Positions 28,807 through 47,646 of a stretch of 64,000 nt of DNA are shown piece after piece; within the stretch, counting starts at the first letter, position 1, and each line of letters begins with the position of its first letter. The notes under the pieces are model-generated. The model made no database searches. It had not been told where the DNA came from and worked only from the letters and a program-made list of their open reading frames with translations. The position numbers were made by a program, and so were the translations under genes. This DNA is from Microcella alkaliphila (GTDB lineage: Bacteria > Actinomycetota > Actinomycetes > Actinomycetales > Microbacteriaceae), in assembly GCF_004216855.1 (NCBI RefSeq), contig NZ_SGXT01000013.1:124001-188000 (forward strand), written 5' to 3'.

Positions 28807-29188
28807 GCCCCCACCCTGCCACGCCCGCCCTGCCGCCCGGTGTGTGCGCCCGCCGCTCGTCGCGCCCGCCTAGCCCTGCCGCGCCCCCTCGCCCGCCCGC
28901 CTAGTGCGCCCTGGCCTGCCCCTCGCCCGCGGACACACATCGCCCCCAAAACTCCTTCCACAACAGCGGAAGGCTGAATCTCGTTCGCCCGTTCCGCTGT
29001 TCTGGAAGGCGTCGCGGAATAGGTTGCTTCACTTCTCCGCTGTTCTGGAAGGCGTCAGACCAAAGGGCTTTCACTTTTCCGCTGTTCTGGAAGTCGCGGG
29101 GAGGGGTGAGGGCGTTCCGCGGCGGGCCGGTTGTCGGGGCAGCGACGGCAGGGGAGGGTGATCGCGCCCCTCCTGGCAGGATGGCCGC
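28807..29188. other. Divergent gap of 382 bp between the CPBP gene and mazG
   Basis: No credible gene; the one short plus-strand frame here is made mostly of repeat sequence. The left 120 bp are simple C-rich sequence. The right part carries four copies of a TTCC-N8-GGAA element (see the separate entry). The promoter of mazG must lie at 29093-29188, but I see no clear -35/-10 pair. Confidence 0.6.
28956..29092. repeat. Four copies of a 16-bp TTCC-N8-GGAA element, three in tandem
   Basis: TTCCGCTGTTCTGGAA occurs at 28992-29007, 29035-29050 (first base C) and 29077-29092, with periods of 43 and 42 bp; the intervening 26 bp also share a CACTT ending and a GGCGTC start. A fourth copy, with one change, lies inverted at 28956-28971. 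Each copy is itself a gapped palindrome (TTCC...GGAA), so it could bind a dimeric protein. It lies upstream of mazG. Confidence 0.75.
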
Positions 29189-39324: not shown

Positions 39325-39397
39325 GCCCCGGTAGCCCAATGGCAGAGGCAGGCGACTTAAAATCGCCACAGTGTGGGTTCGACCCCCACCCGGGGTA
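39325..39397 (+). tRNA. tRNA with UAA anticodon and a short variable loop (class I shape)
   Basis: A 73-nt cloverleaf. Acceptor strands GCCCCGG and CCGGGGT pair (G1-U72 wobble); D stem GCC/GGC; anticodon arm GGCGA-CTTAAAA-TCGCC, anticodon UAA (Leu); variable loop of only 5 nt (39368-39372); T arm GTGGG-TTCGACC-CCCAC; discriminator A; CCA not encoded. Bacterial tRNA-Leu normally has a long variable arm, which is missing. Its identity is therefore uncertain. Its 3' 23 nt are repeated downstream at 57-bp intervals. Confidence 0.75.
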
Positions 39398-39513
39398 CTT
39401 TCTGCACGGCGCGGGCCTGGTTCGGCCCGCGGGGTTCGACCCCCACCCGGGGTACTCTCTGCACGGCGCGGCGCTCCGTCGCGCCGCGGGGTTCGACCCC
39501 CACCCTGGGTACT
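39375..39513. repeat. Three copies of the tRNA 3' end, exact 57-bp period, separated by hairpins
   Basis: A 25-bp segment (T-loop side, acceptor 3' strand and the next two bases) occurs at 39375-39399, 39432-39456 and 39489-39513; the first two are identical and the third has one change. The two 32-bp spacers each contain a perfect hairpin with 8-bp stem and 6-nt loop: CGCGGGCC-TGGTTC-GGCCCGCG (39410-39431) and CGCGGCGC-TCCGTC-GCGCCGCG (39467-39488). The array ends at the stop codon of the convergent gene. Confidence 0.9.
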
Positions 39514-41632
39514 AGCGCAGACTCGGCTCGACCCAGCGCGTCCACGCCACCACCGCGAGGCATACAGCGCCGAACGCGGCGGCGACGCCCGCGAGCGGCA
39601 CGATCGGGAAGCTCGGCCCCGACACGGCAACCGCTGCTCCGACCGCAGCCGTAATGATCGTGACGACCGCCCAGCCGAGCCGCGAGATCGTGTACAGCGT
39701 GCGCCCGGGGAATGGCCCCACCGGCAGCAGCAGCAAGACGATCGACCCGAAGCCGCCGAGCGCGAGCGCGGCCGCGCCTTCAGCCGCGAGGTTGGCCCAG
39801 AACCCCACCGCGGGCGTGAGCACGTCGTGGATGGCCCAGCCGGCGAGAGCCACGACGGCGACCCCGGTTGTTTGCGCGATCGCGACGCCCGCGCGTGCCG
39901 ACCTCGGCACGACGCCGACGATGGTCGTCGCGACCAGTACCCCCACGAGGATGGGCGGCTGCAGATCCCAGAGGCGCGACAGCAGCGCCGTGATGGTGGC
40001 CGCGATGAGCATCGAGGGAAGCAGTCGCTCGGTCACCGCGGACGAGGTGAGTCGCCCCGCCACTCGCGCGGGGATGACGACGGCCACCAGGTTGAGGACG
40101 AGCAGCGCCGCCCCGATCGCGGCCATGAGGCGTAGGTACCGCACCTCCAGATCGATGCCGCCCGAGAGCGCGGCGACGAGCGTCGCACCGCCGAGCACTC
40201 CGGCGGCGACAAACCAGCCGGGGAGGACGGGGTTGTCGTCATCGGCGACGGCGCGGTTACGTCCGGTCAGCCGGAAGCCCGGGGGCAGCAGCCGCGGCAG
40301 TGACCCCTGTGTCACCAGCCGCATTGGCCAGGCCACGAGCACCAGGTACCCGATCCCGACGAGCAGACCGATGAGCCAGCCACCGCGCTCCCACACCTGT
40401 GCCGCGGTGGGCAGCGACGCCCCGAACGTCGTCGGCGTTCCCCAGTTGGTGTCGGTGACGTTCGGCGCGGGCCCGTCCGGACGCACCGGAGCTGGCGGCG
40501 CCGAGCCGTTCGGGCCGGGCGGAGGAGACGGCGTCGCGCTGCCATCGTTCGAGTCAGGGTCGCCTCCCGCCTCACCATTGCCGTCCGTCGCATCGGGCTC
40601 GTCGGGCGTGCCCGGCGCGGAGGGGGTCGTCGGTCCCGGTGCTGCGGACGGAGAGCTTGGCGACGGCGTGGGTGTTTCGCTTTCCTGGCCGACAACGGTG
40701 ACCTGGATCCGTTGTGTCGGCGCACTGAAATTCCCGGCTGCGTCACGTTGAAGCGCTTGGATATGTCGATTGCCGGTCCCGGTTATGCGAATGATGCAGT
40801 CCCACTCGCCTGAGTCAGTCGCATCAACGATGCGACGTTGTTCGGCATTGACGAAGACCTGAACGTTGGCGTTCGCTTCCGCGGTGCCGCGGACGCGAAT
40901 GTCGGAGCCACTTACCGACGTTCCATTGCTCGGCTCGAAGATGCGGGGCGGCTCCGGCGGTTCGCGGTCGATGGTGAAGGGAACGGCCGTGCCGAAGATC
41001 GAGAACTCGGTCGACGGTGCGGGCGGCCCTTGCCGTGCACTCACCGAATACTCGCCGCTGGGTGCGTTGGAACGTGACAGGGCGCAAGACCAGAATCCGT
41101 CGGGCAGCACATCTGGGCACGCGTGGACGACCGCGCCGTTGTCTCCGACTGTCTGAACCTGCAGGCGTGCGCCGGGTTGCCCCTGGCCGACGACGCGACC
41201 AGCAGAGATGGGGGATCCGGAGCCAGCCGAGACGGTGGGAGGACCTAGTACTCGGAGGCGAAGCGGCGTAAGGGTGGTCGTCGACCCGTCACCGAACTCC
41301 ACCACCCCGCCAAAATCGTTGATCCCATTCGGCACGCTGAGCGGCCCGCACGTGAATGTTTCGGTGCCGGCTTCGATGACGCAGACCACGTCGCCGGAGC
41401 CGTCAGCTCCCCGGGTGATGCGCAGCTCGCTGCCCTCGTCCTTCGTGCCCGAGAGTTCGACGACGTTCTGTCCGATGAACGCGTTGTTCGAGAGGTCCCA
41501 CGCCGCCGCGGCCTGGGCGGGCGCGGCGGGTACGGCGGCCAGCAGCGCCGCGAGCGCGACCGTCGCGACAAGAACGGCGAGTATCCGCGACCGTCGCCGG
41601 GGCGCGCCACGTAGGTGCCGGGCAGGCCGCAT
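39512..41632 (-). CDS. Secreted/membrane protein: Ig-like repeats, Pro-rich linker, multi-helix membrane domain
   Basis: A 706-residue protein of unknown function. A signal peptide (residues ~13-42, ILAVLVATVALAALLAAVPA) is followed by ~290 residues of beta-rich, Ig-like extracellular modules; one (~222-310) has the repeat pattern of bacterial Ig/surface proteins (PPRIFEPSNGTSVSGSDIRV...AVQRDAAGNFS type). A Pro/Ser/Thr/Gly linker covers ~315-410. About eight membrane helices fill the C-terminal ~280 residues. The ATG at 41632 is supported by GAGGGGGG upstream. It could be a surface adhesin or sensor; the membrane part resembles no transporter I know. Confidence 0.78.
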   Translation of the reverse strand: MRPARHLRGAPRRRSRILAVLVATVALAALLAAVPAAPAQAAAAWDLSNNAFIGQNVVELSGTKDEGSELRITRGADGSGDVVCVIEAGTETFTCGPLSVPNGINDFGGVVEFGDGSTTTLTPLRLRVLGPPTVSAGSGSPISAGRVVGQGQPGARLQVQTVGDNGAVVHACPDVLPDGFWSCALSRSNAPSGEYSVSARQGPPAPSTEFSIFGTAVPFTIDREPPEPPRIFEPSNGTSVSGSDIRVRGTAEANANVQVFVNAEQRRIVDATDSGEWDCIIRITGTGNRHIQALQRDAAGNFSAPTQRIQVTVVGQESETPTPSPSSPSAAPGPTTPSAPGTPDEPDATDGNGEAGGDPDSNDGSATPSPPPGPNGSAPPAPVRPDGPAPNVTDTNWGTPTTFGASLPTAAQVWERGGWLIGLLVGIGYLVLVAWPMRLVTQGSLPRLLPPGFRLTGRNRAVADDDNPVLPGWFVAAGVLGGATLVAALSGGIDLEVRYLRLMAAIGAALLVLNLVAVVIPARVAGRLTSSAVTERLLPSMLIAATITALLSRLWDLQPPILVGVLVATTIVGVVPRSARAGVAIAQTTGVAVVALAGWAIHDVLTPAVGFWANLAAEGAAALALGGFGSIVLLLLPVGPFPGRTLYTISRLGWAVVTIITAAVGAAVAVSGPSFPIVPLAGVAAAFGAVCLAVVAWTRWVEPSLR

Positions 41633-41775
41633 GAATATCCCCCCTCTCGCCTCAACTCGGGAGACTGTCAATTCTTCCAGCATCGCCGGGTCTCCCGGGC
41701 ATGCGGCGCGCTGTGCACAGCCCGCGTATAGCGGTCACCCTGTCGCCGCGCGGCACCGCGGCCTATGCTGAGACC

Positions 41776-42342
41776 ATGGAATTCCTCATCGTCGTTGGCG
41801 TGATCCTCGTTCTCGCGATCATCGCGGGCATTTACCTCTGGGCGACGTACAACGCTCTCGTGACGCTGAACGTGCGCGTTGATGAGGCCTGGAGCGACAT
41901 CACGGTGCAGTTGAAGCGCCGCGCCGACCTTCTGCCGAACCTGATTGAGGCAGTCAAGGGCTATGCCGCGCACGAGAAGCAGGTCTTCGAGAACGTGACG
42001 AAGGCGCGTGCCGAAACGCTGAGCGCTCAGGGCCCCGCCGAGGCGAGCGCGGCCGAGAACCACATGCAGCAGGCACTCAAGAGCATCTTCGCCGTCGCCG
42101 AGGCGTACCCGCAGCTGCAGGCGAGCCAGAACTTCCTTCAGCTGCAGGGCGAGCTCGTCGATACGGAAGACAAGATTCAGGCGTCGCGCCGCTTCTACAA
42201 CGGCGGGGTGCGCGAGCTCAACGTCAAGATCAAGCAGTTTCCAAATACGCTCTTCGTGCGCAGCCTCGGCTTCACCGAGCGCGACTTCTTCGAGGTCGCC
42301 GACGCGGCCGCCATCGCCGAGCCGCCCCGGGTCCAGTTCTGA
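41776..42342 (+). CDS. LemA family protein
   Basis: A 188-residue LemA protein: one N-terminal membrane helix (residues 3-24, LIVVGVILVLAIIAGIYLW) with the rest a long four-helix bundle, on the cytoplasmic or external side by family model. Signature blocks YNALVTLNVRVDEAWSDI, QLKRRADLLPNLIEAVKGYA and YPQLQASQNFLQLQGEL are all present. ATG start. It precedes the HtpX-like protease by 44 bp; lemA-htpX pairs are common and the two are thought to work together in membrane protein quality control. Confidence 0.94.
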   Translation: MEFLIVVGVILVLAIIAGIYLWATYNALVTLNVRVDEAWSDITVQLKRRADLLPNLIEAVKGYAAHEKQVFENVTKARAETLSAQGPAEASAAENHMQQALKSIFAVAEAYPQLQASQNFLQLQGELVDTEDKIQASRRFYNGGVRELNVKIKQFPNTLFVRSLGFTERDFFEVADAAAIAEPPRVQF

Positions 42343-42386
42343 CCAGCCTGATCGACTCTCTTCCGGCCTTCCAGGAGGGCTGACAC

Positions 42387-43265
42387 GTGTATCGCGCCAT
42401 TGCGGCGAACAAGCGCAAGACGGTGGTCATCATCGTGCTGTTCGTTATCTTCATCGGGCTCATCGCCCTCGTGTTCGACTACGCCTACGGCAGCGGGCTG
42501 ACAATTACGATCGGCACGCTGATCGGCGCGACCATCTACGTACTGATTCAGTATTTCTCGGCCGGATCGCAGGCGCTGGCCATGGCGGGTGCACGCCAGA
42601 TCCAAAAGGCCGACAACCCGCGCCTGTACCGCATCGTCGAAAACCTGGCGATCACCGAGGGCATGCCGATGCCCAAGGTCTACATCGTTGACGACCCGGC
42701 GCCCAACGCCTTCGCGACCGGCCGCGACCCGCAGCACGCGTCGGTCGCCGCGACGACCGGCCTGCTCGAGATCATGACCGACCGCGAACTGAACGGGGTG
42801 ATGGCGCACGAGATCGGGCACGTGAAGAACTACGACATTCGCGTTTCCACGATCGTGTTCGGCCTCGTCGTCTTCGTCGGGTTCCTCACCGACATTCTCT
42901 TGCGCATGGCGTTCTTCGGGGGCAGTCGCAACAACGGCGGAAACCCCATCGTCTTGGTGCTGGGGCTCGCCGCGATGATCATCGCCCCGCTCACGGCCGC
43001 CGCCATCCAAGCCGCGGTGTCGCGCCAGCGCGAGTACCTCGCCGACGCGACGGGGGCGCTCGCCACGCGCGACCCCGAGGCCCTGGCAAGTGCGCTGCAG
43101 AAGCTCGGCGACTACGCCCGGCCGATGAAGCGTCAGAACTCGACGATGGCGCACCTGTGGATCAGCGACCCGATGAAGCCGGGCGTCATCGACCGCATGT
43201 TCGCCAGCCACCCGCCGATCCCCGATCGCGTGAAGCGCCTCATCGAGAACTCGACGCGCTTCTAG
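42387..43265 (+). CDS. htpX: M48 family zinc metalloprotease HtpX
   Basis: A 292-residue membrane protease that degrades damaged membrane proteins. Two N-terminal helices (~12-33, 40-60), the zinc motif HEIGH at residues 141-145 followed by the third ligand Glu in SRQREYLADATGA, and two helices between (~155-175, 190-215). The GTG start is set by CAGGAGGG at 42371-42378. It is second in the lemA-htpX pair. The stop shares CTAG with the stop of the convergent YcaQ-like gene. Confidence 0.94.
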   Translation: MYRAIAANKRKTVVIIVLFVIFIGLIALVFDYAYGSGLTITIGTLIGATIYVLIQYFSAGSQALAMAGARQIQKADNPRLYRIVENLAITEGMPMPKVYIVDDPAPNAFATGRDPQHASVAATTGLLEIMTDRELNGVMAHEIGHVKNYDIRVSTIVFGLVVFVGFLTDILLRMAFFGGSRNNGGNPIVLVLGLAAMIIAPLTAAAIQAAVSRQREYLADATGALATRDPEALASALQKLGDYARPMKRQNSTMAHLWISDPMKPGVIDRMFASHPPIPDRVKRLIENSTRF

Positions 43266-44473
43266 CCCTCTCGGGCGACGGATGCGCGAATCGCCTCGAT
43301 CGCGTTTCCCCAGTCGGCGACTACCACACCATTCAGGCCCTGCCACTGCGCGGCCCGCGCGAGCACGGGCGCAACCCGCTCGGCCATTGAGTCGGGGTCG
43401 ACCCCCTCCTCGGCCCAGGCCGACTGGACGCGGAGCACCCCGGCCTGACGGTCGCTCTTCAGATCGATGCGGCCGACGAGCGTCTCGTCAATGAGCACGG
43501 GCAGCGAGTAGTAGCCGAACTGCCGCTTCGGCGCGGGCGTGTAGATCTCGATGCGGTAGTGAAAGTCGAAGAGTCGCTCGGTGCGCGGCCGGAACCACAC
43601 CACGGGGTCGAAGGGCGATAGCAGCGCGGCCGTCTCGATCCGGCGGGGCACGCGCGTGCTCGCCCAGCGGTAGGCGGGTTCGGGACGCGAGCCGCGCATC
43701 CAGCCGTCGACCGTGACGGGCTCGACGAGACCGTCGTCGACGAGCGAACGCAGCGCGGCCTGCGTGGGCGCGATCTTCAGGCGGTGGTAGTCGGCGATGT
43801 CGGCCACCGTGCCGACGCCGAGGGCGCGCACGCTGCGGGCGACGAGCTCGCGCTCGGCCTCGGCACGTGGAACCGCGAGCTCGTGCAGCTCGGTGAGGCC
43901 GATATGCTCGGGCAGCGCGTACACCCGTGAGAAGCCGCGCCGACCGGCGCTCACCACGTCGCCGAAGGCGAAGAGGTACTCGAGGCCGAGCTTCACGTCG
44001 CTCCAACCCCACCACGGGCCGCGGCGCACCGCGGTGTCGTGCTCGACGTCACTGACCGTCATCGGCCCGTTCGCCGCGAGCTCGTCGAGCAGCCAGCGCA
44101 TCATCCGAGGGTTCTTGCTCACCCACCCGTCCCGCGCGTGGTACTTCTGGCGGAGCGCCTCGCGCTTCCACTGCCACAGCGGCCAGTCGTCGCGGCGAAT
44201 GAGCGCCGCTTCGTGCGCCCAGTACTCGAGGTAGCGGCCGCGGCGTGAGAACACCAGACGATCGAGCGCGCTCGTGTCGTAGGCGCCGAGGCGGGCGAAC
44301 AACGGGAGGTAGTGCGAGCGCGCGAAGACGTTCACGCTGTCGAGCTGCAGCACCTGCACACGGTCGACGGCGGAATTCAGCGTGCGCGCCGACACGGCCG
44401 ACGGCTGGGCTCGATCGAACCCCTGGGCTGCGAGCGCGAGGCGGCGCGCCTCGGCGCGGCTGAGCTGGTCCAC
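43262..44473 (-). CDS. YcaQ-like winged-helix DNA glycosylase family protein
   Basis: A 403-residue protein of the HTH_42/YcaQ (AlkX) family, which in E. coli unhooks DNA interstrand crosslinks. The N-terminal region shows ARRLALAAQGFDRAQP and VLQLDSVNVFARSHYLPLFARLG, followed by the conserved YWAHEAALI motif and YHARDGWVSKNPRMMRWLLDEL; winged-helix modules fill the middle, and the C-terminal SPFDPVVWFRPRTERLFDF block is typical. No signal peptide. It is divergent from the AI-2E family transporter gene. The glycosylase role is inferred from family. Confidence 0.88.
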   Translation of the reverse strand: MDQLSRAEARRLALAAQGFDRAQPSAVSARTLNSAVDRVQVLQLDSVNVFARSHYLPLFARLGAYDTSALDRLVFSRRGRYLEYWAHEAALIRRDDWPLWQWKREALRQKYHARDGWVSKNPRMMRWLLDELAANGPMTVSDVEHDTAVRRGPWWGWSDVKLGLEYLFAFGDVVSAGRRGFSRVYALPEHIGLTELHELAVPRAEAERELVARSVRALGVGTVADIADYHRLKIAPTQAALRSLVDDGLVEPVTVDGWMRGSRPEPAYRWASTRVPRRIETAALLSPFDPVVWFRPRTERLFDFHYRIEIYTPAPKRQFGYYSLPVLIDETLVGRIDLKSDRQAGVLRVQSAWAEEGVDPDSMAERVAPVLARAAQWQGLNGVVVADWGNAIEAIRASVAREG

Positions 44474-44568
44474 ACGGCAACGCTAGTGCCGACCCCGGAC
44501 GAGCGCGCATGCCCGGCAGGGCATGTGCGCGGCCACGAGCATCCCGAGCCTGCTCGTAGACTGGCCGA

Positions 44569-45750
44569 ATGTTCCGTCGGTTGCGAAGCCCTGAGACACC
44601 GGCGTTCAGCGCCGAGTCCACGGTCTCGCCGGGCATGCGCGTTGCGGCCGCGTGGTCGTGGCGCTTCCTCGTGGTCGCGGGTGCGATTGCGATCCTGATC
44701 TTCTTGGTGATCCAGCTGCGCCTGCTCATCATCCCGTTGCTGATCGGTGTGCTGCTCGCCGCGCTGCTGCAGCCATTCTCGAGCCTGTTGCAGCGCCGGC
44801 TGCGCTTTCCCAAGTGGCTCGCGGTCATCACCGCCATGCTCACGCTGCTCGGCACGGTCACCGGGTTGGTGTGGCTCGTCGTGTCCGAGATTCGAGCAGG
44901 GTATGCCTCGATCGAGGCGCGCGCGATCGAGCGCTACGACGAACTCATCGTGTGGGCAACCGACACCTTCGGCCTCAGCGAAAACACCATCAGCGACTGG
45001 ATCGCGAACGCGATCGACGAACTCGAGATCGACCCCGACTTCCTGCTCTCCGGCGCCCTGTCGGTCGGATCGACCGCCGCCGAGGTGGCGACCGGCGCGA
45101 TCCTCGCGCTCTTCGCCCTGCTGTTCTTCCTCATCGATGGCCCCCGCATTTGGCGGTTCATCGTGCGACTATTCCCGAAGCCGGCGCGGGTGCCGGTCGA
45201 CGGTGCCGGTAAGGCGGGCTGGCTGACGCTCAGCAACTTCGCGAAGGTGCAGATCTTCGTCGCCTTCGTGGACGCGGTCGGTATCGGCCTCGGCGCCCTG
45301 ATTCTGCAGTTGCCGCTTGCCCTGCCGATCGCGGTCGCCGTCTTCCTCGGAAGCTTTGTGCCGATCGTCGGCGCCGTCGTCACCGGGGCGCTCGCGGTCT
45401 TCATCGCGCTCGTCTACTACGACATCGTGATCGCCCTCATCATGCTCGCCATCGTGCTCCTCGTGCAGCAGGTCGAGTCGAATGTCCTGCAGCCGCTCGT
45501 GATGGGTCAGGCGGTCAAGGTTCACCCCCTCGCCGTCGTGCTCGCGGTCGCCGCCGGCGGCTTCCTCGCGGGAATACCGGGCATCCTGTTCGCGGTGCCC
45601 ATCGCGGCCGTGCTGAACGTGGTGGTCCGCTACCTGGCGAGCGGCGCCTGGCGCGAGCACCCTGACCCCGAACTGGCAGACATCTTGCCGCCTGAACCAG
45701 AGTCGCCTGCCAGTGATTCTGAACCCGCCGATAGGAAGGCCGACGAATGA
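44569..45750 (+). CDS. AI-2E family transporter
   Basis: A 393-residue membrane protein of the AI-2 exporter superfamily, some of whose members export small molecules or act in ion homeostasis. About seven to eight helices; hallmarks include LLIIPLLIGVLLAALLQPF near residue 60, a long hydrophilic region with amphipathic helices (~110-175), and GSFVPIVGAVVTGALAVFIAL with VQQVESNVLQPLVMGQAVKVHPLAV in the C-terminal half. The tail is acidic. Its stop overlaps the ilvA start by 4 bp (ATGA), so it may be linked with amino acid metabolism; the substrate is unknown. Confidence 0.91.
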   Translation: MFRRLRSPETPAFSAESTVSPGMRVAAAWSWRFLVVAGAIAILIFLVIQLRLLIIPLLIGVLLAALLQPFSSLLQRRLRFPKWLAVITAMLTLLGTVTGLVWLVVSEIRAGYASIEARAIERYDELIVWATDTFGLSENTISDWIANAIDELEIDPDFLLSGALSVGSTAAEVATGAILALFALLFFLIDGPRIWRFIVRLFPKPARVPVDGAGKAGWLTLSNFAKVQIFVAFVDAVGIGLGALILQLPLALPIAVAVFLGSFVPIVGAVVTGALAVFIALVYYDIVIALIMLAIVLLVQQVESNVLQPLVMGQAVKVHPLAVVLAVAAGGFLAGIPGILFAVPIAAVLNVVVRYLASGAWREHPDPELADILPPEPESPASDSEPADRKADE

Positions 45751-46988
45751 CGCACGAGCTCACGATCGCCGGCCCCACGCTCGAGGAGGTCGAGCGGGCG
45801 CGCACCACTCTGAATGGCGTGGTCGACGTGACGCCGATGGAGTCATCGCACTATCTGAGCCGCGTGCTCGGGCAGCCAGTCTTCATGAAGTGCGAGAACC
45901 TGCAGCGCACCGGCTCGTACAAGATCCGTGGCGCGTACAACCGCATCTCGTCGCTGAGCGACGACGAGAAGGCGCGTGGCGTGGTCGCCGCGTCGGCCGG
46001 TAACCACGCCCAAGGCGTGGCGTTCGCCGCGCGCGAGCTTGGCATCCCAGCCACCATCTTCATGCCCATCGGCGTCGCCCTGCCGAAGCTCGCCGCCACG
46101 CGCGACTACGGCGCCGACGTCGTGTTGCGCGGGCACACCGTTGCGGAACCGCTCAAGGCCGCCGCTGAGCACGCGGAGCGCACCGGTGCCGTCTACATCC
46201 CGCCGTTCGATCATCCCGATGTCGTCGCCGGTCAGGGCACGCTCGGGCTCGAGGTGCTCGATCAGGTGCCCGACCTCGCGACCGTGGTTGTTCCCATTGG
46301 CGGGGGAGGGCTCATCTCGGGCATGGCTTCGGTCCTGAAGCAGCGGGCCGCCGCGCTCGGCCGAGAGATTCGCGTCATCGGAGTGCAGGCGGTCAACGCC
46401 GCCGCATACCCCGTCTCGCTCGCCGCGGGCGCTCCGACCGAAATCACGATCAGCCCGACCATCGCCGACGGGATCGCGGTCTCGAAGCCCGGCAAGCTGA
46501 ACTTCGCGATCATCAAGGACACCGTCGACGATGTCGTCACCGTCGATGATGACGACATCGCGCGCGCCATGCTCGTGCTGCTCGAGCGCGCCAAGCTCGT
46601 CGTCGAGCCGGCCGGTGCCGTCGGTGTCGCGGCGATCCTCACTGGCAAGGTTCGGGCGACCGGGCCCACCGTCGTGATGCTGTCCGGCGGCAACATCGAC
46701 CCACTCATCATGGAGCGCGTGATTAGCCACGGACTGGCGGCCAGCGAGCGTTACCTGAAGTTGCGCATCCCGCTGCCCGACCGGCCAGGGCAGCTCGCGC
46801 GCACGAGCGAAATCGTCGCGGCGCAGAACGCCAACGTCGTCGAGGTGCTGCACACCCGCCACGGCACCGGGCTCGCGATCAGCCAGGTCGAACTTGAACT
46901 GCACATCGAAACCCGCGGCCCCGAGCACGCCGAACAGGTGCTGGGCGCGCTCAGGGCCGAGGGTTATGAACCGCGCGTCGACTTTTAA
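45747..46988 (+). CDS. ilvA: Threonine ammonia-lyase
   Basis: A 413-residue PLP enzyme that deaminates threonine to 2-oxobutanoate, the first step of isoleucine synthesis. The PLP lysine is in RTGSYKIRGAYNR (~residues 53-65); the phosphate-binding loop is PIGGGGLISG; SAGNHAQGVAFAARELG and MPIGVALPK follow the lysine. The C-terminal ~85 residues (LKLRIPLPDRPGQLARTSEI) are a single ACT-like domain, the short, TdcB/catabolic-like length. Its last ~27 bp and terminator hairpin are repeated downstream, in the gap to greA. Confidence 0.94.
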   Translation: MTHELTIAGPTLEEVERARTTLNGVVDVTPMESSHYLSRVLGQPVFMKCENLQRTGSYKIRGAYNRISSLSDDEKARGVVAASAGNHAQGVAFAARELGIPATIFMPIGVALPKLAATRDYGADVVLRGHTVAEPLKAAAEHAERTGAVYIPPFDHPDVVAGQGTLGLEVLDQVPDLATVVVPIGGGGLISGMASVLKQRAAALGREIRVIGVQAVNAAAYPVSLAAGAPTEITISPTIADGIAVSKPGKLNFAIIKDTVDDVVTVDDDDIARAMLVLLERAKLVVEPAGAVGVAAILTGKVRATGPTVVMLSGGNIDPLIMERVISHGLAASERYLKLRIPLPDRPGQLARTSEIVAAQNANVVEVLHTRHGTGLAISQVELELHIETRGPEHAEQVLGALRAEGYEPRVDF

Positions 46989-47155
46989 CGCACGCGCGAA
47001 ACGCTGATTCGCGTTTGGGTAGCGATGCGGGGTGAGTTTCTCGCACACGCGAAACGCTGATTCGCGTTTCGGGATATGAACCGCGCGTCGACTTTTAGCG
47101 CACACGCGAAACGCTGATTCGCGTTTCGGGTTATGAACCGCGCGTCGACTTTTAG
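46961..47155. repeat. Repeated ilvA 3' end plus hairpin, 57-bp period
   Basis: The last 27 bp of ilvA (from 46961 with stop TAA) reappear at 47071 and 47128, exactly 57 bp apart, nearly unchanged. A hairpin CGAAACGC-TGATTC-GCGTTTCG (8-bp stem, 6-nt loop) follows or precedes each: 46997-47018 (last pair broken), 47050-47071 and 47107-47128. The final copy supplies the greA stop codon (47152-47154). Each hairpin may act as a bidirectional terminator between the convergent genes. Confidence 0.9.
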
Positions 47156-47646
47156 GGCGCGTAGGTCTCGACCTCGACGATCGTGACCTCGATGCTCTTT
47201 CCGTTCGGCGCCTCGTAGCTCACCGTGTCGCCGACTTTGGCGCCGTTGATCGCCTGGCCCAACGGGCTCGCCTCACTGAACACATCGAGGTCGCTGCCGT
47301 CGGCGAGAATCTCGCGGCTGCCGAGCAGGAACTTTTCGTCGTCGCCGAGAATCGTCGCCGTGATCACCGTGCCGGGACGGACGACACCGTCTGCTTCGGG
47401 GGCGTCGCCGACGGATGCGTTCTTGAGCAGTTCGGTCAGCGTGCGGATGCGCGCCTCGATCTTGCCCTGCTCGTCTTTCGCAGCGTGGTAGCCGCCGTTC
47501 TCCTTGAGGTCGCCCTCGTCGCGCGCCGCCTCGATGCGCTTGGCGATCTCGGCGCGGCCCGTCGTCGACAGGTGCTCGAGCTCGGACTGCAGCCGGTCGT
47601 ACGCGTCCTGGGTGAGCCACTGGGTGGTGCCACTGGTGTCGCTCAT
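47152..47646 (-). CDS. greA: Transcription elongation factor GreA
   Basis: A 164-residue cleavage factor that rescues backtracked RNA polymerase. The N-terminal coiled coil (TQDAYDRLQSELEHLSTTGR...) carries the acidic tip, and the C-terminal FKBP-like domain has VRPGTVITATILGDDEKFLLGSRE (shown here as GTVITATILGDDEKFLLGS) and ASPLGQAINGAKVGDTV. ATG start behind AGGAGG. The 135-residue protein at 13241 is a divergent paralogue. The stop codon lies in the last copy of the ilvA 3'-end repeat. Confidence 0.95.
   Translation of the reverse strand: MSDTSGTTQWLTQDAYDRLQSELEHLSTTGRAEIAKRIEAARDEGDLKENGGYHAAKDEQGKIEARIRTLTELLKNASVGDAPEADGVVRPGTVITATILGDDEKFLLGSREILADGSDLDVFSEASPLGQAINGAKVGDTVSYEAPNGKSIEVTIVEVETYAP

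Follow-up and report, generated by a model that had tools for sequence, protein, structure and literature searches.

Why is the 3' end of a gene copied again downstream of itself, with a small palindrome between the copies? The question is raised by two arrays in a 64-kb stretch of Microcella alkaliphila DNA (contig NZ_SGXT01000013.1, positions 124,001 to 188,000; hereafter the window), one behind the transfer RNA (tRNA) gene tRNA-Leu(TAA) and the other behind ilvA. A tandem-repeat scan placed them as the two top-scoring repeats of the window, among 28 repeat rows in all (tRNA-Leu array, 39375-39513, period 57, score 215; ilvA array, 46961-47155, period 57, score 278). In both, copies of the last 24-28 nt of the gene (E) are set apart by a spacer plus a palindrome whose arms are 8 bp and whose loop is 6 nt. 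The original prediction held that this shared architecture is unlikely to be chance, and offered as one possibility a specific mechanism that duplicates terminators. We agree that chance is not the cause: numerous species carry the same layout, at numerous loci, and this indicates a single process that duplicates the 3' ends of genes. The explanation we prefer, at a probability of roughly 0.5 and slightly better than even, is that replication has repeatedly switched template at hairpins and in doing so duplicated the ends of tRNA genes and other, tRNA-like gene ends, with repeat expansion and loss afterwards.

The left edge and the period of the copies

The constant feature of the units is the left edge of the copy, which lies at the T-arm (GGGTTCGA, tRNA nt ~51) or, in ilvA, at a T-arm look-alike, GGGTTAYGACC, in the corresponding place; of a tRNA gene, the final third is thus what is copied. 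For 96 copies at 63 loci, collected by a T-arm motif search, identity to the copy's own gene was 0.02-0.40 at positions -5 to -1 (0.67 at -6), then 0.97-1.00 from the GGG on. A motif-free scan of 300 nt on either side of the 41 tRNA predictions in the window's genome found five exact repeats of at least 12 nt at four loci, all of them downstream and all beginning at tRNA nt 50-52.

Unit length varies. The sharp 57-bp period that had been predicted did not survive a check of the same 96 tRNA-linked copies, whose periods run from 36 to 152 bp (29 at 79-82, 26 at 66-73 and 20 at 47-57); among them, a period of 57 occurs only at the Leu locus of the window and that of its closest relative, G002. 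This spread rules out a 57-bp system. An expected preference for gaps between convergent genes was not borne out either: judged by eye from frame statistics, the downstream gene at 40 Microcella loci is convergent in about 20 cases, co-directional in 12 and unclear in the rest.

Layout and distribution of the arrays

The 3' end of tRNA-Leu(TAA) (39325..39398, plus strand; ARAGORN, Rfam) recurs from GGGTTCGA at 39375, 39432 and 39489, and two perfect 8-bp hairpins with 6-nt loops separate the three copies. On the plus strand, the gene's own E1 (39375-39398) is followed by a spacer (39399..39409), palindrome 1 (CGCGGGCC-TGGTTC-GGCCCGCG, 39410..39431), E2 (39432..39455, 24/24 identical to the gene), a second spacer (39456..39466), palindrome 2 (CGCGGCGC-TCCGTC-GCGCCGCG, 39467..39488) and the final copy E3 (39489..39512, 23/24 identical). 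Palindrome 2 differs from palindrome 1 by two compensated pairs, and E plus spacer differ at 1/35 positions. The convergent 723-residue open reading frame (39512..41683, minus strand) gave only a weak, sub-cut-off match to a membrane-protein domain.

The second array follows ilvA, which encodes a threonine ammonia-lyase of 413 residues (45747..46988, plus strand), and faces greA (47152..47646, minus strand). Here, also on the plus strand, E1 with the T-arm look-alike GGGTTATGAACC (46961-46988) precedes palindrome 1 (CGAAACGC-TGATTC-GCGTTTGG, 46997..47018, one mismatch) and palindrome 2 (CGAAACGC-TGATTC-GCGTTTCG, 47050..47071). The ilvA end recurs at 47071 (E2, 47071..47098) and 47128 (E3, 47128..47155), with palindrome 3, of the same sequence as palindrome 2, between them (47107..47128). 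This array is less regular and partly decayed, since one gene-end copy is absent, the hairpin spacings are 53 then 57, and the first hairpin is mismatched; the predicted common 57-bp design is thus correct in that both arrays exist, but not in its regularity. The last copies of both arrays overlap the stop codons of the convergent genes (CTA 39512-39514; TTA 47152-47154, held by E3), as predicted for the window, but in other Microcella genomes the ilvA and greA stop codons either overlap with no array present or are separated by different sequence. Nor are the two array sequences unrelated, as had been stated: across species, the hairpin of one locus aligns with that of the other, together with the GGGTT.GA behind it.

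Rfam recognized only the tRNA in the arrays, one other match falling far under its gathering score. The array sequences are not dispersed in their own genome, where further matches were weak and mostly short, and plasmid records gave four matches, to the tRNA part only. Elsewhere in the window, 28992-29093 is an imperfect 43-bp tandem repeat of 2.4 copies with a TTCCGCTGTTCTGGAAGGCGTC core.

Conserved synteny made it possible to follow the ilvA locus, as ilvA converges with greA in 26/26 Microcella genomes. Reading by eye, we found complete units in the gap in 12 of these (G000, G006, G008, G009, G012, G013, G014, G016, G018, G019, G022, G023), stops overlapping by 4 nt with no array in three (G007, G017, G020), a gap of only 12-15 nt in two (G002, G010) and other sequence in nine. 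Because genomes with overlapping stops adjoin unit-bearing ones on an ilvA+greA tree, units are evidently gained and lost. The tRNA-Leu(TAA) architecture was present in 10/24 matching genomes (G000, G002, G007, G010, G012, G013, G017, G018, G022, G023). A covariance model built from 23 units, with at most 150 candidates scored per genome, found further Microcella units at tRNA-Leu(CAA), Thr(TGT), Thr(CGT), Gly(CCC), Glu(CTC), Met, Ala(TGC), Ala(CGC) and Lys(TTT). A multi-hairpin, G+C-rich stretch, GCCGCTCCTGCGGCGCAGCGCGCTCC, and its variants lie downstream of several Microcella tRNA genes (L107, L122 and L123, Gly CCC; L099 and L244, Ala TGC and Ile GAT).

A second model (R2), whose filters lose weak matches, had matches in 27/149 family genomes. 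By inspection, the 27 loci retrieved from outside the genus comprise 14 tRNA units, two doubtful cases (L152, L159) and 11 weak matches without a tRNA unit; the 14 units come from 13 genomes of 11 further Microbacteriaceae genera. At L152 (G057:C2), the 3' end of a tRNA-Arg(CCT) appears again downstream of the gene, once inverted and once as an incomplete direct copy. In Microcella and at least 11 other Microbacteriaceae genera, then, tRNA genes (Leu, Thr, Gly, Met, Glu, Ala, Lys, Ser) are trailed by copies of their own 3' ends, usually immediately behind a palindrome. When 84,980 species genomes were searched for pairs of T-arm copies at a distance of 45-75 bp, 47 stretches emerged, 21 of which are Microbacteriaceae tRNA units (nine Cryobacterium, nine Microcella, two Curtobacterium, one Leucobacter). 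The remaining 26 consist of neighbouring tRNAs, repeats within coding sequence, or lone T-arm copies from other taxa (e.g., L172, L195, L205), the last showing that T-arm-edged copies are not restricted to the family. Cryobacterium tRNA-Ser(GGA) carries up to eight extra copies; the hairpin finder placed no perfect hairpin immediately 5' of the T-arm in the Cryobacterium copies. We found no description of such arrays in the published literature, searched at the level of listings and abstracts.

Origin of the units

The first half of the unit looks like native sequence. The spacer downstream of the gene recurs after the last copy at 16/62 loci (control: stretches of other tRNA kinds). Relatives without units have similar sequence directly 3' of tRNA-Leu, scoring above all controls in 8/9 readable genomes and clearly so in four. 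In G020, which has no unit there, TCAGCACGGCGCTAACGCAGCACCGG comes directly after tRNA-Leu; G017, a member of this subclade too, has TCAGCACGGCGCTAACGCAGCACCGG twice, before and after an imperfect 3' arm plus a copy of E, and the DNA beyond is collinear. This order (native stretch, 3' arm, E, native stretch) is what a fold-back switch of template would produce if synthesis returned at the T-arm. The stems tell a similar story. A first alignment gave 20 cells changed on both sides, none changed on one side and 4/176 unpaired; a second, fitted one gave 37, none and 6/419. Stems thus vary on both sides jointly and without G-U intermediates, as template switching would have it, and in 3/17 comparisons neighbouring units have near-identical E and spacer yet compensated stems.

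We therefore envisage that replication would switch template at a hairpin, the fold-back copying the reverse complement of local sequence, and that synthesis would return upstream at the T-arm, so that the gene end is copied again. The T-arm may be the point of return because, where copying proceeds in the direction of the tRNA body, a newly made T-arm could fold at the growing end of the strand at the moment nt 51 is reached. Checking for microhomology that could guide the return, we saw no identity upstream of the copy edge; Gs are shared at the edge itself. Units would later expand and disappear as repeats.

Several observations weigh against this scheme. The recurring spacer includes the whole 5' arm at just six of the 16 loci (it ends in or before the arm at five, and no close palindrome was found at five), and there is no spacer recurrence at the other 46/62 loci, the window's Leu array included. 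Three of the 17 neighbour comparisons show one-sided stem differences. Some unit-free relatives have native perfect hairpins, so the hairpin may precede duplication. The tRNA-Leu end alleles alternate in arrays (A-B-A in G012; gene B and copy A in G007 and G013), which requires recombination. Finally, hairpins of unrelated loci have a common tip, CGC-T..C-GCG, and 6-nt loops are present in 12/14 units of the clade G000/G002/G010 against 0/43 elsewhere in the genus (L021:1400-1429, a doubtful model match, was left out of this count), whereas spacers go with the locus. A tip and loop length common to unrelated loci call for a factor acting in trans or for gene conversion from one locus to another. 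Part of the likeness among hairpins is ascertainment, as hairpins of this kind went into the models. A bolder version, which we regard as rather unlikely, is that a Microbacteriaceae factor acting in trans (a repair polymerase, a hairpin nuclease or an unknown recombinase) treats palindrome and T-arm junctions as a specific substrate and repeatedly duplicates gene 3' ends; a change of this factor in one Microcella clade would have reset the loop from 3-5 to 6 nt at the Leu, Met, Thr(TGT), Ala and ilvA loci.

The uniform loop length across several loci of a clade, the alternating alleles and the mimicry of the T-arm by the ilvA end would also suit site-specific insertion, in which a hairpin-acting recombinase puts a gene-less cassette (E, spacer and palindrome) in at GGGTTCGA and restores the gene 3' end, with the palindrome as recognition site. 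An edge at the T-loop with an identity block up to the gene end is moreover what tRNA-targeting elements leave. We nonetheless consider insertion unlikely, as the 5' half of the unit is native downstream sequence at several loci and no accompanying enzyme was found in searches for Phage_integrase, Y1 transposase, reverse transcriptase and Cas1 (serine recombinases were outside the search). Phage_integrase had two matches each in the unit-bearing genomes G016 (81% complete), G018 and G020, but by eye its counts do not follow the units, which are tens of bp long; the integrase gene that a tRNA-targeting integrative element would have inside it or linked to it is thus not indicated. The Y1 (RAYT) transposase PF01797 was found in 0/26 genomes (control, 5/14), reverse transcriptase PF00078 in 3/26 (G001, G011, G014; control, 3/14) and Cas1 PF01867 in 1/26 (G001; control, 9/14). 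A phage attachment site was rejected after one viral scan with one exact site form, which matched four contigs, none with a tRNA. Three viral contigs (L218-L220) have GCGTCGCGGGGTTCAAGTCC in one shared context, likewise without a tRNA.

The original prediction offered, as its other possibility, multiplied terminators selected to stop transcription collisions. On this account ordinary slippage duplicates the units, and selection keeps palindrome and T-arm hairpins that halt transcription, chiefly between convergent genes. Stems do remain paired, and by our own reading the four unit-bearing tRNA loci of G000 have no ordinary terminator with a U-run while many other G000 tRNAs have one. However, GGG(G)TT stands behind the hairpin where an intrinsic terminator would have its U-run, and the stretch after tRNA-Glu of G022 (L095) repeats an already existing ordinary terminator together with the hairpin as one block. 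With about 12/40 neighbours co-directional, relatives lacking entire units and no homology upstream of the copy edge, we judge selected terminators unlikely, about as much as insertion; neighbour orientation and the missing U-run tell against terminators and collision control alike. Least probable, and very much so, are scars of tRNA-integrating islands nearly all deleted to attL-scrap-attR. The tRNA-Thr(TGT) of G006 and the tRNA-Leu(TAA) of G016 do have displaced tRNA 3' halves kilobases downstream, with integrase genes between in G006, but these halves begin near the anticodon loop and not at the T-arm, the G006 unit lies outside the island, and among the genus covariance-model matches inspected there was no clear island ending in palindrome-GGGTTCGA. 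At L252 (G006:C1:1981000-1990000), ~7.7 kb with integrase matches separate tRNA-Thr(TGT) from a displaced 3' half that still bears a hairpin unit; at L046/L062 (G016:C140), a partial tRNA-Leu (nt 29-74) lies ~3.6 kb from the full gene, probably marking a small island at that tRNA.

Most inferences of template switching concern isolated events. A family in which numerous parallel cases have a common T-arm breakpoint would make its switching and return rules testable, and the arrays would be natural records of a copying error that is difficult to observe as it happens. They may also permit swapping of tRNA 3' ends by recombination, as the alternating alleles of G012, G007 and G013 suggest, and they are a hazard for the annotation of tRNAs and islands. 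The clade-wide loop length over unrelated loci hints at a definable trans factor; were such a factor real, it would recognize the T-arm, or the look-alike within a protein gene, and the gene-end duplication at that site would be of a new kind.

Relation to known systems

The E. coli tyrT locus has 178-bp repeats containing tRNA-Tyr 3' ends. Like the units described here, these are tandem repeats 3' of a tRNA gene, each with a tRNA 3' end, but this is a likeness only: tyrT is a single locus with a longer unit, and is not known to have a palindrome abutting the T-arm. REP palindromes, which go with RAYT transposases, are likewise small and intergenic, but the palindromes of our units are tied to a local gene-end copy, and the 26 Microcella genomes lack the Y1 transposase. 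In template-switch products, the return to the template is close by or at microhomology; in Microbacteriaceae units it would lie upstream, at the T-arm.

Genomic islands, too, can have displaced tRNA 3' parts as partial copies near a full gene; in the case quoted from PMC9897764, the copy is 44 bp long, single and ~21.4 kb away, while Microbacteriaceae units are short, tandem and gene-less. CRISPR arrays and casposons, five of the latter overlapping tRNA 3' ends according to PMC4046053, resemble the arrays in the ~25-nt duplication flanking an inserted stretch, but here the intervening stretch is a local palindrome and Cas1 is found in only one of the 26 genomes. A further close parallel is template-switch mutation, or quasi-palindrome correction: template switching that makes and mends stems in single events is described in PMC8794818, with perfect stems arising from reverse-complement copying and stem pairs changing on both sides together. 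What would set the present case apart is that synthesis also goes back upstream to a fixed T-arm, duplicating gene ends at many genes of one bacterial family.
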